Shown: in pieces, positions 18,789 through 40,422 of the stretch | How positions within the stretch are numbered: position 1 is the first letter of the stretch | Layout: each line of letters opens with the position of its first letter | Source: Methylobacter sp. | GTDB lineage: Bacteria; Pseudomonadota; Gammaproteobacteria; Methylococcales; Methylomonadaceae | NCBI GenBank assembly: GCA_002928495.1 | Contig: PERF01000004.1 | Span: 1 to 46,720 of the forward strand | Direction of reading: 5' to 3' | Length of the DNA stretch: 46,720 nucleotides | Translations under genes and position numbers: made by a program | Notes under the pieces: model-generated | Told to the model about the DNA's origin: nothing | The model's input: the letters and a program-made list of their open reading frames with translations, nothing else | The model's database searches: none

Positions 18789-20144
18789 ATGACTATAGAA
18801 AACGCTACGCTGCTGCCGCCGACAGCCACCGTCAACCCATCGCCCGGTTCAGCTTCGTTTCAGACTTCGGTAACAACCGATGCGGGCGGCTTTACCGATG
18901 CCCTGACGGTGCAGCTAAATAATCTAAATGCCGGCAATGTTACCGCCACCGCAACGCTGATAGATCCTTTAACGTTACTCACCAGCCAAACGGCTACGGC
19001 CGGCACGGCTGAAGTCACGGAGGCAGCACCAGGCAATTTTACGCCGGTAAGCGGAGTGATTAATGATCAAGCCGGCAAAATTTTGCCTCAAATTCTCACA
19101 GAGGTGACCGATGACAATGCACAACAAGCGCTGGATGAGGTATTGCAATTTCTTTATCCGGCCTCGGCTCAATCCGGGGTCCAAGGCGACTTGTCGGCTG
19201 AGCAAACCGGCGGCAAGCCAACACTTAAGAGGATAAGTGATTCGGAACCTGACAGCTTGGATGACGGCATCCTTGATCCTGCCATTATTCTGCTTTTAAC
19301 CGTTAATAATATTGTTCAACAACCTCAACCTGAACGCTTGGAGCAAAACGCCACGCGTGCGGCATCGCCGACCCTCTCCCTGATAGCCGGGCAAAATGCT
19401 GCATCGGCACAGGCGCTAACGCCGACAAACGCTAATGCCGATACCGATCAACCAGTGCTTGGCTCAGGATTGGCAAAGGCTTTGGGGGATCAATCCGCAA
19501 CAGACGAGCAGGGCACCAATTTTGATAACGCCATAAAACTGGCGTTTGAGCGCGAACAAACCCAAACCGGACTTGCAAACTCCGATGCCAGTGTGCTTAA
19601 TGACAGCGCTCAAAATCTGAATTCGGCGCAGGGATTTTTCATTAAAAACAGCGATAACATATCGGCCAATCCGCTTAATAACCAGCCGGTGATCGTTAAT
19701 GCAGAGATCGGTCAGCCGGAATGGCAAGCCGAATTGGGCAATAAAATCCTGTGGCTGCATAACCAATCTTTACCTTCAGCCGAAATACAACTGAATCCGG
19801 AGCATTTAGGACCGATTTCAATTAAAATCGATGTCAATCAAGATCAAGCCAGTGTGGCATTCTCCGCGCAACAGGCTTCGGTTAGAGAAGCTTTGGAAGC
19901 TTCAATACCCAAACTCAAAGAGCTGTTTACCAATCAACAGCTGAATTTAAGCCAGGTTAATATCTCCGAGCATTTTTCATCAGGCCAAGGTCATGGGCAA
20001 CAACAAAATTTTAACCAACATCAGGCACATAGCCAATCCGGCCAGGGAACAGGCACGGCGGTAGAAAATAATTCGGCATCGATCCTAGACCATAGCGCGC
20101 AAACGGCTTTAACCAGCAAAGGTTTATTAAGTCTTTATGCTTAA
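18789..20144 (+). CDS. fliK: Flagellar hook-length control protein FliK
   Basis: The protein is 451 residues. Most of it (1-310) is a low-complexity, Thr/Ala/Asn/Gln-rich secreted ruler. The conserved C-terminal Flg_hook domain is near 315-400 (LPSAEIQLNPEHLGPISIKI, then VREALEASIPKLKELF and NLSQVNIS), followed by a Gln/His-rich tail. FliK measures hook length and switches export specificity through FlhB. An AGGAG site precedes the ATG. It is the last flagellar gene here; the remaining flagellar genes must lie elsewhere. Confidence 0.9.
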   Translation: MTIENATLLPPTATVNPSPGSASFQTSVTTDAGGFTDALTVQLNNLNAGNVTATATLIDPLTLLTSQTATAGTAEVTEAAPGNFTPVSGVINDQAGKILPQILTEVTDDNAQQALDEVLQFLYPASAQSGVQGDLSAEQTGGKPTLKRISDSEPDSLDDGILDPAIILLLTVNNIVQQPQPERLEQNATRAASPTLSLIAGQNAASAQALTPTNANADTDQPVLGSGLAKALGDQSATDEQGTNFDNAIKLAFEREQTQTGLANSDASVLNDSAQNLNSAQGFFIKNSDNISANPLNNQPVIVNAEIGQPEWQAELGNKILWLHNQSLPSAEIQLNPEHLGPISIKIDVNQDQASVAFSAQQASVREALEASIPKLKELFTNQQLNLSQVNISEHFSSGQGHGQQQNFNQHQAHSQSGQGTGTAVENNSASILDHSAQTALTSKGLLSLYA

Positions 20145-35755: not shown

Positions 35756-37735
35756 ATGTTCAAAAAGCTAACTTTGTTGTGCATTTTTTTATGTTTTTTT
35801 TCCATTATAGCCGGAACCTATCTCACTTTATCTGAACCCGGCCATTGTCCTGAGTGGGCCGGCTGTTCGGCGGTCGATATCTTCAATGTAACCGAAGCTA
35901 AGAGCAATCAATTTGCCATTGACCGAAATTTAGCCAAGTCCGTGCACTATTACCTGCTTTGGCTCTTAGTTTTTTCTTTAATGGTTTTAATGATTGTTAG
36001 CTGCAGGCAAGACAAATTTAAGCTGCTGGCGGTATCGGTAAGCTCCAGTATTTTTGTATTAACGATTTTGCAAACAGTACTCGGCATTTGGTTAGCACAA
36101 ATGCCGAATATCCCTTTAATATCAATTGTTCATTGGGGGCTTGGTCTAATAGTTTTTTGGATTTTGTTTTGGCTTTATATTCGAACACAAATTGAAGTTT
36201 TTGAAGACAAAGCCGTTAACGGCTTTGTTTTTTTGGTGGGCTTGTGTACGGTTGCTCTGTGTTTACAAATATTTTGGAGCGCGTGGTCTAGCTTACATTT
36301 TGCATTGAGCACTTGCCTGGACTTTCCTAAATGTAATGGCTACTGGTGGCCCGAATTGGATTTTCCGGGAGCACTGAATTTAATGAATGGTTTATCCGGT
36401 GTTTATGAATCCCCATCGTTGCCGGCGCGTATCAGTATTAACCGCTTTTTGTTGTTGAGCGTAAGTTTTTGTTTTATTGTTAATTTAGCGCTTGTTTTAA
36501 CCACATTACCAGCGCGTAAAACCAAGGCTGTCAAAATTTCCGCGATATTTTTAGCGATTTTTTCAATTCTGGATTTGACCTTATTTATTGGTTTTAATCT
36601 GGCGCCGGAGTTATTTTGGCCAAAATTTGCATTTTTATGTCTTAGCAGTTTGGCCATGTTGCCTTTGATCGGAATTTCGCTTTTTAACCATAAGCCGGAA
36701 CATCGAACAAACGACTCTTTTTCAAGCATTCCTTCTGAACTTGCCGCAGAGCTAGAGCCGGATTCTGCGCATGAAATTAAACCTCGGGCTGATGACTACC
36801 AAAAACCAGCGCCGGAATCACTGTATTTAAGATTAAAAAGTCAATTAAGCCATACCCGCAATGGTTTAAATAAGGTTTTAACAAACTTTGCGGGCGGGCA
36901 AAAACAACTCAGCAGCGATTTTTTGGCTGACATCGAGGCCGATTTGATAATGGCCGATGTAGGTATTGACGCCACCGCCGAAATTATCAACCGGCTTACT
37001 CAAAGCCTTGATAAAAAACAATTAGCTGATGGCGATACGTTATCTCAAGCTTTGAAGCAAGAGCTGTTAAACTTGCTTAAACCTTGCGATGAAACGCTAC
37101 ACATTGCCAAATCGGACAAGCCTTTTGTAATTTTAGTGATCGGCGTCAATGGCGCCGGCAAAACCACAACCATTGGTAAGCTGGCAAAACGCTTACAAAT
37201 ACAAGGCTATAGCGTAATGCTGGCGGCAGGAGACACGTTCAGGGCGGCTGCGGTCGAACAATTGCAAACCTGGGGTGAAAGAAACCAGATTCAAGTCGTA
37301 GCTCAGCACACTGGTGCGGATTCGGCGTCGGTTATTTTCGACGGCTTACAGTCCGCCCAAGCCAAAGGTGTGGATGTCTTGATAGCCGATACGGCAGGGC
37401 GGTTGCACACTAAATCAAATTTAATGGAAGAATTAAAAAAAGTTAAGCGTATTATGGCTAAACTTGATGAATCAGCCCCCCACGAAGTGTTATTGGTGCT
37501 GGATGCCGGCACCGGGCAAAATGCCTTGTCACAAGCTAAGCAATTTAATGAAGCAGTGGCGGTTACCGGCTTGGTTTTAACCAAGCTAGACGGTACTGCC
37601 AAAGGCGGCGTTATTTTCGCATTGGCTAAACAAATGCAAATACCGATTAGATTCATTGGTATAGGCGAAGGAATTGATGATTTGCAGGATTTCAACGCAG
37701 AAAATTTTGTTGAAGCGCTTTTTGTTAAAGATTAG
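35756..37735 (+). CDS. ftsY: Fusion protein: CtaA/COX15-like eight-helix domain joined to FtsY (SRP receptor) NG domain
   Basis: This is one uninterrupted 659-codon frame. Residues 1-310 resemble proteobacterial haem A synthase: about eight helices, Cys pairs C31/C37 (CPEWAGC) and C187/C193 (CLDFPKCNGYWWPELDFPG), H64 and H126. The catalytic Glu position appears to be K61, and both second-half haem His positions are lost. Residues 311-355 are an acidic linker like an FtsY A domain. Residues 356-659 form a full FtsY NG domain: GVNGAGKTTT (463-472), GDTFRAAAVEQL (492-503), DTAGR (545-549), TKLDG (609-613). An even helix number keeps the GTPase cytoplasmic. An internal in-frame ATG (M301) lacks a ribosome site. 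ftsE starts two bases after its stop. Confidence 0.9.
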   Translation: MFKKLTLLCIFLCFFSIIAGTYLTLSEPGHCPEWAGCSAVDIFNVTEAKSNQFAIDRNLAKSVHYYLLWLLVFSLMVLMIVSCRQDKFKLLAVSVSSSIFVLTILQTVLGIWLAQMPNIPLISIVHWGLGLIVFWILFWLYIRTQIEVFEDKAVNGFVFLVGLCTVALCLQIFWSAWSSLHFALSTCLDFPKCNGYWWPELDFPGALNLMNGLSGVYESPSLPARISINRFLLLSVSFCFIVNLALVLTTLPARKTKAVKISAIFLAIFSILDLTLFIGFNLAPELFWPKFAFLCLSSLAMLPLIGISLFNHKPEHRTNDSFSSIPSELAAELEPDSAHEIKPRADDYQKPAPESLYLRLKSQLSHTRNGLNKVLTNFAGGQKQLSSDFLADIEADLIMADVGIDATAEIINRLTQSLDKKQLADGDTLSQALKQELLNLLKPCDETLHIAKSDKPFVILVIGVNGAGKTTTIGKLAKRLQIQGYSVMLAAGDTFRAAAVEQLQTWGERNQIQVVAQHTGADSASVIFDGLQSAQAKGVDVLIADTAGRLHTKSNLMEELKKVKRIMAKLDESAPHEVLLVLDAGTGQNALSQAKQFNEAVAVTGLVLTKLDGTAKGGVIFALAKQMQIPIRFIGIGEGIDDLQDFNAENFVEALFVKD

Positions 37736-37737
37736 CC

Positions 37738-38394
37738 ATGCTTAAATTCGAACATGTCAGCAAACGCTATCCTGAAGCCGGTGAAGTACTGCGCAATATC
37801 AATTTCAGCTTGGATCACGGTGAAATGGCATTTTTAACCGGTCATTCAGGCGCCGGCAAAAGCACTTTGCTTAGGTTGATTGCCGTCATTGAACGTTGCA
37901 GCCGGGGACACATTTGGCTGGACGGCGCTAGTGTGAATGACGCTAAAACCGGCCAAATTCCAGTTCTGAGAAGAAAAATCGGCTTGATATTTCAAGATTA
38001 TAAATTACTACATGACAGAACCGTGTTTGATAATGTTGCCTTACCTCTGGTTATCGCCGGCTATGGACATCAGGAAATTGGCAGGCGGGTAAGAGCGGCC
38101 TTGGATAAAGTGGGCTTGTTAGGCAAAGAAAATAAATACCCTGTTACACTATCGGGTGGTGAACAACAGCGTGTCGGTATTGCCCGTGCCGTAGTCAATA
38201 AGCCGCCGATGATATTGGCCGATGAACCGACCGGCAATCTGGATCCCGAACTATCTTCAGAAATCATGAAATTATTTGAGCAGTTCCAGCAGGTTGGGGT
38301 AACCATTTTAATCGCTACCCATGATATTTCCCTGATAAGCAAAATGAATTACCGTGTGTTAAAGCTGGCGCAGGGTGAGTTAACTTCTGATTAA
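37738..38394 (+). CDS. ftsE: Cell division ATP-binding protein FtsE
   Basis: FtsE (218 residues) is the ABC ATPase that with FtsX controls septal peptidoglycan hydrolysis through periplasmic activators. Visible motifs are Walker A GHSGAGKST, the FtsE-typical RRKIGLIFQDYKLLHDRTVF, signature LSGGEQQR, Walker B MILADEPTGNLD and the His switch ATHD. It begins two bases after the upstream stop, so its translation is probably coupled to that of the ftsY fusion. Confidence 0.96.
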   Translation: MLKFEHVSKRYPEAGEVLRNINFSLDHGEMAFLTGHSGAGKSTLLRLIAVIERCSRGHIWLDGASVNDAKTGQIPVLRRKIGLIFQDYKLLHDRTVFDNVALPLVIAGYGHQEIGRRVRAALDKVGLLGKENKYPVTLSGGEQQRVGIARAVVNKPPMILADEPTGNLDPELSSEIMKLFEQFQQVGVTILIATHDISLISKMNYRVLKLAQGELTSD

Positions 38395-38438: not shown

Positions 38439-39488
38439 TTGTTAAAGGCAATTCAAGGCGGTAGCAAAAAGTCGCCGCGTGGCGGCAGAGCGCGGCCTGT
38501 GTATCCGTCACCTTCCAGCCGTCCGATAGATAACACCCAAACCCGGAAAGCCGGCGGGCGCTGGCGAGACAAGTTCAACGCTTATCTAGAACTTAACCGG
38601 CATGAGTTGTTTGTTAGCCTTGAACGCTTGGTTGATACGCCATTTTCTTCATTAATGACAATCGGTGTGCTGGCAGCGGCTTTAACCCTGGCCATCAGCT
38701 TTTATCTGGTGGTTGCTAACCTTAACCAGCTCACGCTTGGGCTACAATCGACCAGCCAAATTTCATTATTCCTACGCGACGAAGTGCAAGACGGCCACGC
38801 CCGAAAATTAGCCGAGAAAATTCAGCTTAACCCGGATGTACAACAAACCGGCATGATCTCAAAAGCCCAAGGCATGCAGGATTTTTTAGCCTATAGCGGT
38901 TTTGCCGAGGCCATTCAGGCCCTTGAAAGCAACCCACTGCCGATTGTTATTCAGGTACAGCCCGCGAGTTCGGCAACCGAACCCAGGCAACTGGAAAAAC
39001 TGCTCGCTGAATTCAGGCAATATGTCGAGGTTGACCGTGTCATACTGGATATGGGATGGGCGCAACGTTTGCGCGCCTTAATCGAGCTATTTGAACAAGC
39101 GGTTATGGTACTCAGTATTTTTCTTGCCGCAGGCGTGTTGTTGATTATTGCCAGCACCATTCGTCAGGAATTACACAAACGCCGCGACGAAATTATTATT
39201 TGTAAACTTATTGGCGCGACCGACGGCTTTATAAGGCGGCCGTTTATTTTTACCGGCTTCTGGCTGGGTTTTTTTTCGGCGATCATGGCTTGGTTTGTGG
39301 TTGCTGTCATGGTGCTGGCACTCAAAAATCCAATTGAAAATTTATCCGGACAATACGATGGTAACTTTCATGTCTTGTTTTTGTCGTATCCGGAAACTTT
39401 TATTTTTTTCATCGTAGCTTCCACCCTCGGTGTTACCGGCTCGTGGATGATTTTGCAAATCCAATTAAGGCAATTAATACCTGAATAA
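38439..39488 (+). CDS. ftsX: Cell division protein FtsX
   Basis: FtsX (349 residues from TTG 38439, with AGGA nine bases upstream) has a basic N-terminal tail, four helices (about 70-92, 222-245, 273-297 and 321-340) and a periplasmic loop after the first helix. Family segments are TPFSSLMTIGVLAAALTLAI, ESNPLPIVIQVQP and KLIGATDGFIRRPFIF. An ATG at 38402 would be in frame only if the A9 run at 38415-38423 had eight A. The start is therefore uncertain. Confidence 0.92.
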   Translation: MLKAIQGGSKKSPRGGRARPVYPSPSSRPIDNTQTRKAGGRWRDKFNAYLELNRHELFVSLERLVDTPFSSLMTIGVLAAALTLAISFYLVVANLNQLTLGLQSTSQISLFLRDEVQDGHARKLAEKIQLNPDVQQTGMISKAQGMQDFLAYSGFAEAIQALESNPLPIVIQVQPASSATEPRQLEKLLAEFRQYVEVDRVILDMGWAQRLRALIELFEQAVMVLSIFLAAGVLLIIASTIRQELHKRRDEIIICKLIGATDGFIRRPFIFTGFWLGFFSAIMAWFVVAVMVLALKNPIENLSGQYDGNFHVLFLSYPETFIFFIVASTLGVTGSWMILQIQLRQLIPE

Positions 39489-39508
39489 AAATTGAACCTC
39501 AAAAAACT

Positions 39509-39534
39509 TTAGCACTCTCAAAAAAGAGTGCTAA
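39509..39534 (+). promoter_or_regulatory. CIRCE-like HrcA operator upstream of rpoH
   Basis: TTAGCACTC (39509-39517) and GAGTGCTAA (39526-39534) are the two arms of the CIRCE consensus, without mismatch, separated by eight bases instead of the usual nine. It overlaps a predicted promoter. CIRCE is bound by the heat-shock repressor HrcA. The one-base shorter spacer makes binding likely but unproven. Confidence 0.7.
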
Positions 39535-39537
39535 AAT
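39509..39537 (+). promoter_or_regulatory. Predicted sigma-70 promoter of rpoH
   Basis: TTAGCA (39509-39514) and TAAAAT (39532-39537) are 17 bases apart. The -10 matches consensus at five of six positions and the -35 at four. Both hexamers lie within or touch the CIRCE-like arms, so a bound repressor would block polymerase. The transcript would begin near 39544 with a leader of only about 20 bases. Confidence 0.55.
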
Positions 39538-39564
39538 TTGTATCAGTTTAAAGAGGAGGTATTA

Positions 39565-40422
39565 ATGAACAGTGTTTTAGCTTTACCGATAAATTTATCA
39601 ATAGGTACGTTCGACACCTATTTAAATGCCGTAAGACAAACGCCCAAATTATCTCCTGAGCAAGAACATGAATTAGCGGTAAAGTTCAGAGAAGAGGGGG
39701 ATTTAGCAGCGGCTCGCCAATTAGTGCTGTCGAATTTACGCTTTGTGGTGCATATTGCCAGAGGTTATAGCGGCTACGGTCTGCCCATGCCCGACATCAT
39801 TCAAGAAGGTAATGTGGGGCTGATGAAAGCCGTAAAACGTTTTGACCCGTACATGGGCGTACGCTTGGTTTCGTTTGCAGTGCACTGGATAAAAGCCGAG
39901 ATACACGAATATGTGATTAAAAACTGGCGCATCGTTAAAATTGCCACAACCAAAGCGCAACGCAAGCTGTTTTTTAATTTGCGTAAAGCTAAACCCAAAT
40001 TAGGCTGGCTCTCAAATGCCGAAGCCAAGGCCATTGCAGATGATTTGGATGTTGATGTCGATACCGTTTTTGAGATGGAAAAACGCTTTGACAATAGTGA
40101 TATGGCCTTTGATTTACCGTTGGATGAAACCGATGAAGGAGCCAATATATCGCCCTCTACCTATTTGCAGCAGCACGGTGCCGATCCGTCGGAGCTATTG
40201 GAAAATGCCGATTGGGAAGACCACGAAAACACGCGATTGAATCAAGCATTAACATCGCTGGATAAACGAAGCTTGGATATTTTGTCCAGCCGCTGGTTAT
40301 CGGAAGAAAAAGCCACTTTACAAGAGTTGGCCGAGCGCTACAGTGTTTCTGCCGAGCGTATACGGCAACTTGAGCAAAACGCCATGAAAAAACTTAAGGC
40401 GGCCGTGGTTTTGGAAGCTTAA
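39565..40422 (+). CDS. rpoH: RNA polymerase heat-shock sigma factor RpoH (sigma-32)
   Basis: Sigma-32 is 285 residues from ATG 39565, chosen because AGAGGAGGT lies just upstream. Region 2 includes NLRFVVHIARGYSGYGLPMP and DIIQEGNVGLMKAVKRFDP, and region 2.4 reads HWIKAEIHEYVIKNWRIVK. The RpoH box is QRKLFFNLRKAK, and region 4 ends SAERIRQLEQNAMKKLK. The position after ftsYEX is the classical gammaproteobacterial order. Confidence 0.97.
   Translation: MNSVLALPINLSIGTFDTYLNAVRQTPKLSPEQEHELAVKFREEGDLAAARQLVLSNLRFVVHIARGYSGYGLPMPDIIQEGNVGLMKAVKRFDPYMGVRLVSFAVHWIKAEIHEYVIKNWRIVKIATTKAQRKLFFNLRKAKPKLGWLSNAEAKAIADDLDVDVDTVFEMEKRFDNSDMAFDLPLDETDEGANISPSTYLQQHGADPSELLENADWEDHENTRLNQALTSLDKRSLDILSSRWLSEEKATLQELAERYSVSAERIRQLEQNAMKKLKAAVVLEA

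Follow-up and report, generated by a model that had tools for sequence, protein, structure and literature searches.

In the 46,720-nt stretch of DNA analysed here (hereafter, the window), the sigma-32 gene rpoH is preceded by a palindrome, TTAGCACTC-N8-GAGTGCTAA (39509-39534), which lies 30 bp upstream of the rpoH ATG (39565) and whose arms are identical to the CIRCE consensus at 18 of 18 bases. We consider it likely, with good confidence, that this palindrome is a CIRCE operator through which the organism's own HrcA, sitting over the rpoH promoters, would repress the gene until stress. Perfect nine-base arms and a spacer of eight rather than nine bases had both been claimed by an earlier, sequence-only reading of this DNA, and both are borne out in the assembled sequence (Table 1). 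Sites with perfect arms and any spacer of 7-11 nt are expected about 4e-6 times within the 46,720 nt; none arose in 100 shuffles of the window, and the rpoH palindrome is the sole consensus match with perfect arms across the whole draft genome. An Rfam search with the palindrome returned sub-threshold chance matches only.

Table 1. Features of the rpoH upstream region and neighbouring genes in the window
Feature	Position	Strand	Basis or remark
ftsE	37738..38394	+	TIGR02673
ftsX, upstream neighbour of rpoH	38439..39488	+	TIGR00439; same strand as rpoH
Sigma-E-like -35, TGAACCT	39493..39499	+	5/7 against GGAACTT; starts 16 bp upstream of CIRCE
CIRCE left arm, TTAGCACTC	39509..39517	+	exact match; near-invariant among 55 family sites
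Weak -35-like TTAGCA	39509..39514	+	letters dictated by the CIRCE consensus itself
Sigma-E-like -10, TCTCA (TCnnA)	39516..39520	+	last two left-arm bases and three spacer bases
8-nt spacer, TCAAAAAA	39518..39525	+	contains A6 run; all other family sites found have 9 nt
CIRCE right arm, GAGTGCTAA	39526..39534	+	exact match; core near-invariant in relatives
Predicted extended -10, TG-C-TAAAAT	39529..39537	+	overlaps right arm; TAAAAT at 39532-39537
Possible start of sigma70-type promoter	39545	+	suggested by an A conserved roughly 7 nt past the -10 (columns +9/+10)
Ribosome binding site, AGGAGG	39554..39559	+	sequence
rpoH, sigma-32, 285 aa	39565..40422	+	TIGR02392 equivalog, 397.5 bits, cut-off 323.1

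The gene order is ftsY-ftsE-ftsX-rpoH on one strand, with a gap of 76 nt between ftsX and rpoH. The RpoH encoded in the window keeps the QRKLFFNLR segment, which is part of the post-translational control of sigma-32. In the FtsY ORF (35756-37735), residues 4-209 form a COX15/CtaA-like membrane domain at the N-terminus, followed by SRP54_N and GTPase domains; this may be a fusion or an assembly join.

The sequence-only reading had named hrcA, and a CIRCE before groES and before dnaK, as what to look for elsewhere in the genome. The draft (77% complete, 202 contigs) yielded hrcA and the dnaK site: contig 13 carries hrcA (Pfam HrcA, 180 bits), then grpE and dnaK, and a CIRCE with an N9 spacer and one mismatch stands directly before hrcA-grpE-dnaK. 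The assembled hrcA carries a one-base frameshift near the C-terminus, and the conserved last stretch runs on in another frame (locus L094, G000 contig 13, about 19780-19960, minus strand; compared with an intact relative), which points either to assembly indel errors or to a damaged HrcA. A search for groEL in the 77%-complete draft found none, groESL being unassembled; because the draft is incomplete, this is no evidence of true absence.

Conservation of the operator and its association with hrcA

Within the family, an rpoH match was available for 60 genomes, and the sequence before rpoH held a CIRCE (up to 3 mismatches) in 55 of them, with N9 in 54 and N8 in the window alone. Of the five family genomes lacking the site, four come from two genera, g14 and g21. 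In the fifth, G019, a matching CIRCE of promoter-like form was located on a different contig, close to its end (L013). Across the class, represented by 87 genomes of as many families with 88 rpoH upstream regions in all, a CIRCE at the same threshold precedes rpoH in 64/88 regions. Shuffled copies of these regions gave no site with 3 or fewer mismatches, the best having 5. The presence of the rpoH CIRCE tracks that of hrcA, as it was found in 61 of the 64 class genomes with hrcA versus 3 of the 23 without (Fisher p 1e-13, a value inflated by shared ancestry, although the direction is clear). Conservation across both family and class marks the predicted operator on the rpoH promoter as an old shared arrangement, widespread and not peculiar to this genome. 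Together with the co-occurrence with hrcA, it lends comparative support to the direct HrcA control of rpoH that had been proposed from the letters; HrcA binding (including to an N8 site), repression, the start sites and the heat response are what we infer from sequence comparison.

The palindrome could also act at the RNA level, as a hairpin that serves as intrinsic terminator of ftsX or as attenuator before rpoH, and our scan indeed flagged it as terminator-like (11-pair stem with a 6-nt loop, beginning 20 nt downstream of the ftsX stop). However, the A+T-rich stem has 4 GC pairs, and ATTTGTATCA comes after it in place of a clean T run. Moreover, it is the exact CIRCE letters that are conserved, their presence following hrcA, and transcription from this site is predicted to start past the left arm, which would keep the hairpin out of the resulting rpoH mRNA. 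We regard an RNA hairpin function as very improbable.

Departures from the consensus were seen in several genomes. CIRCE-like sequences precede rpoH in some genomes without hrcA, such as G141 (3 mismatches) and G143 (4), and these may be decaying operators. Within family f18, two genomes of genus g201 (G525 and G846; L313, L314) carry a symmetric variant before rpoH, TTAGCAGTC-N9-GACTGCTAA, in which both arms are changed together, and a third, G086, has TTAGCAGTC at this place with the right arm partly changed.

Two promoter-like elements overlapping the operator

The arms had further been said to cover the predicted -35 and -10 hexamers of an rpoH promoter. The placement is as described, with TTAGCA in the left arm and TAAAAT overlapping the right arm, and these form the only sigma70-like pair that a promoter scan detected within 39300-39700. 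Judged by consensus match alone, however, the pair does not exceed what chance yields (1.2 in shuffles), and the support for a promoter comes from conservation. In 47/55 family rpoH sites, a -10 hexamer is completed by the triplet 3' of the right arm (TAAAAT in 26, TAGAAT in 16 and TAATAT in 5), whereas the CIRCEs of groES and hrcA mostly have TAA in this place and the hexamer is rare there. The -10 is thus a feature of the rpoH promoter, not of CIRCE.

An alternative reading is that rpoH is mainly driven from elsewhere, by an upstream promoter or by read-through from ftsYEX, with post-transcriptional control as in E. coli, and that HrcA matters little. It would fit the succession of ftsE, ftsX and rpoH on the same strand with the 76-nt gap, as well as the few genomes that have hrcA and no rpoH CIRCE. 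By contrast, the operator and the -10 are strongly conserved together, and genomes without hrcA mostly lack the operator too. The predicted 5' region of the rpoH mRNA did not fold above shuffles (z 0.14), which also speaks slightly against this reading, although as a weak test it counts neither for nor against a thermosensor like that of E. coli. We consider it unlikely that HrcA plays so small a part.

A second, putative sigma-E-like promoter, which the sequence-only reading had missed, overlaps the left arm. In relatives, it has the form GGAACTT-N16-TCnnA and stands at a fixed distance from CIRCE: GGAACTT with 6-7/7 matches occurs at offset -16 at 24/55 sites in the family and 25/64 in the class and is seldom found at other offsets, a one-base shift aside. 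An A as the third spacer base goes together with the sigma-E -35 both in the family (24/29 versus 6/26 sites; Fisher p 1e-5) and in the class (31/34 versus 18/30; Fisher p 0.0065), kinship being ignored in both tests. When 299 genomes of the phylum were searched for the composite sigma-E and CIRCE pattern, matches were obtained in 7, of which 6 lay before rpoH, and the reversed control of the pattern gave no match. GGAACTT and TCAAA are published RpoE motifs, in Vibrio alginolyticus the rpoH promoter is a binding target of RpoE, and RpoH belongs to the conserved E. coli sigma-E regulon (PMC4890791).

The window's genome encodes RpoE (TIGR02939, 309 bits, cut-off 236); the motif control before its own rpoE gave only AGAACTA-N16-TCATT, too weak for use. 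The version before rpoH in the window, TGAACCT-N16-TCTCA, is weaker than the copies of the relatives. By these comparisons, we regard the putative overlapping sigma-E-like promoter as well supported in relatives and as moderately supported in the window.

Two further genomes bear on the composite arrangement. In G078 (L234), which is without hrcA, GGAACTT-N16-TCTCA is kept before rpoH and the CIRCE arms are gone. In G138 (L309), the composite pattern lies away from rpoH, and the rpoH match of that genome is without the site.

Proposed regulation of rpoH and relation to known systems

Under the preferred reading, HrcA bound to the operator would shut off both the housekeeping-type and the sigma-E-type promoter in unstressed cells. 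GroEL keeps HrcA active; heat or misfolded protein would titrate GroEL, HrcA would release the operator, and rpoH transcription would rise together with that of groESL and hrcA-grpE-dnaK. Envelope stress would add sigma-E-driven rpoH transcription. HrcA would in this way form an extra transcriptional layer on rpoH, alongside the other controls of sigma-32 and not in place of them. Counting against this explanation are the N8 spacer, unique in the family, the frameshift in hrcA, and the match of only 5/7 of the sigma-E -35 in the window; rpoH might also be read from ftsX transcripts or from a promoter further upstream.

A broader proposal, which we put forward tentatively and hold to be possible though less likely than not, is that rpoH is a three-way node throughout the class. 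One CIRCE would span a housekeeping-type and a sigma-E-type promoter, with HrcA as the gate through which both cytoplasmic and envelope stress reach sigma-32, and bacteria without hrcA would lack the operator, some of them keeping the sigma-E promoter. In the lineage of the window, the spacer would have been shortened to eight, bringing the -35/-10 distance from 18 to the optimal 17 without altering that of the sigma-E elements.

HrcA is absent from E. coli, the organism that serves as the model of sigma-32 control. The contrast that the sequence-only reading drew with E. coli, where rpoH is controlled through mRNA structure and protein stability, is fair, but the two schemes have one part in common, since rpoH of E. 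coli possesses a sigma-E promoter as well (P3). The arrangement in the window resembles the HrcA/CIRCE regulon (groESL, hrcA-grpE-dnaK-dnaJ) in the letters of the operator, the palindrome, the presence of hrcA and the placement over a promoter, and differs from it in its target, the sigma-32 gene, and in its spacer of 8 instead of 9 nt. An older comparative study of gammaproteobacteria (Permina and Gelfand 2003) may already cover the class-wide link between rpoH and CIRCE.

A CIRCE before rpoH is in itself already known as a prediction: in 2004, a perfect CIRCE was predicted about 50 bp before rpoH of Geobacter sulfurreducens (PMC545781). Unlike that of the window, the Geobacter site has an N9 spacer and belongs to a deltaproteobacterium, and the passages covered describe no sigma-E overlap (PMC545781). 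The putative second promoter is akin to the sigma-E promoters of rpoH in E. coli (P3) and Vibrio alginolyticus (PMC4890791), which likewise have a GGAACTT-type -35 and a TC-type -10 before rpoH. In contrast to these, for which no HrcA control is described, the sigma-E-like -10 of the window overlaps a CIRCE.

The closest counterpart is the rpoH upstream region of Panacagrimonas perspica (L149), which has an N8 CIRCE with perfect arms and GGAACTC at the sigma-E offset; it differs from the window in lineage and in spacer sequence and comes from a cultured isolate. Literature searches, followed mostly at the level of their listings, brought up no experiment in which HrcA acts on rpoH. The fixed overlap of CIRCE with a sigma-E-like promoter is not described in the literature covered.

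Should HrcA repression of rpoH hold for most of those families of the class in which HrcA occurs, the textbook scheme of E. coli may be a derived state. The two heat-shock systems would then form a hierarchy, with HrcA above sigma-32, rather than run in parallel. The fixed overlap of CIRCE with the sigma-E-like promoter leads to a simple prediction, open to test, on how signals of envelope stress and of cytoplasmic stress are brought together.

The eight-base spacer

N8 CIRCEs are rare among relatives, being present in 1/237 family genomes (the window) and in 2/369 class genomes, where the other case lies at groESL. One base less in the spacer turns the arms by roughly 34 degrees. In the window, it also places TTAGCA 17 nt from the -10 instead of the 18 nt of N9 relatives, and the sigma-E spacing is unchanged.

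The short spacer could be a sequencing or assembly error, in which case the true site would be N9, an ordinary family-standard CIRCE before rpoH. Besides the isolation of N8 among the 237 family genomes, the spacer consists mostly of an A6 run, which is prone to length errors, and hrcA in the same draft, which is 77% complete in 202 contigs, has a one-base frameshift; the run and the frameshift together make an error a serious alternative, to which we give somewhat less than even weight. On the other hand, the large ORFs of the window tile without obvious breaks, so indels are not frequent here, and N8 CIRCEs occur at real targets in named isolates.

A scan of one genome per species gave more than 100 N8 CIRCE stretches among the matches listed. 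By sequence comparison, at least 45 of the 80 N8 loci examined adjoin groES, groEL or hrcA, and 1/80 adjoins rpoH, that of Panacagrimonas perspica. The occurrence of N8 at real chaperone operators and at this rpoH gene indicates that eight bases are tolerable, and HrcA probably tolerates such a spacer. In addition, among loci L097-L176, many Levilactobacillus species repeatedly show N8 CIRCEs before apparent small heat-shock and other non-chaperonin genes, and such sites are found in Lactococcus before a DnaJ-like gene, the genes in both cases being judged from protein starts only, as well as in Spirochaetes before groES.
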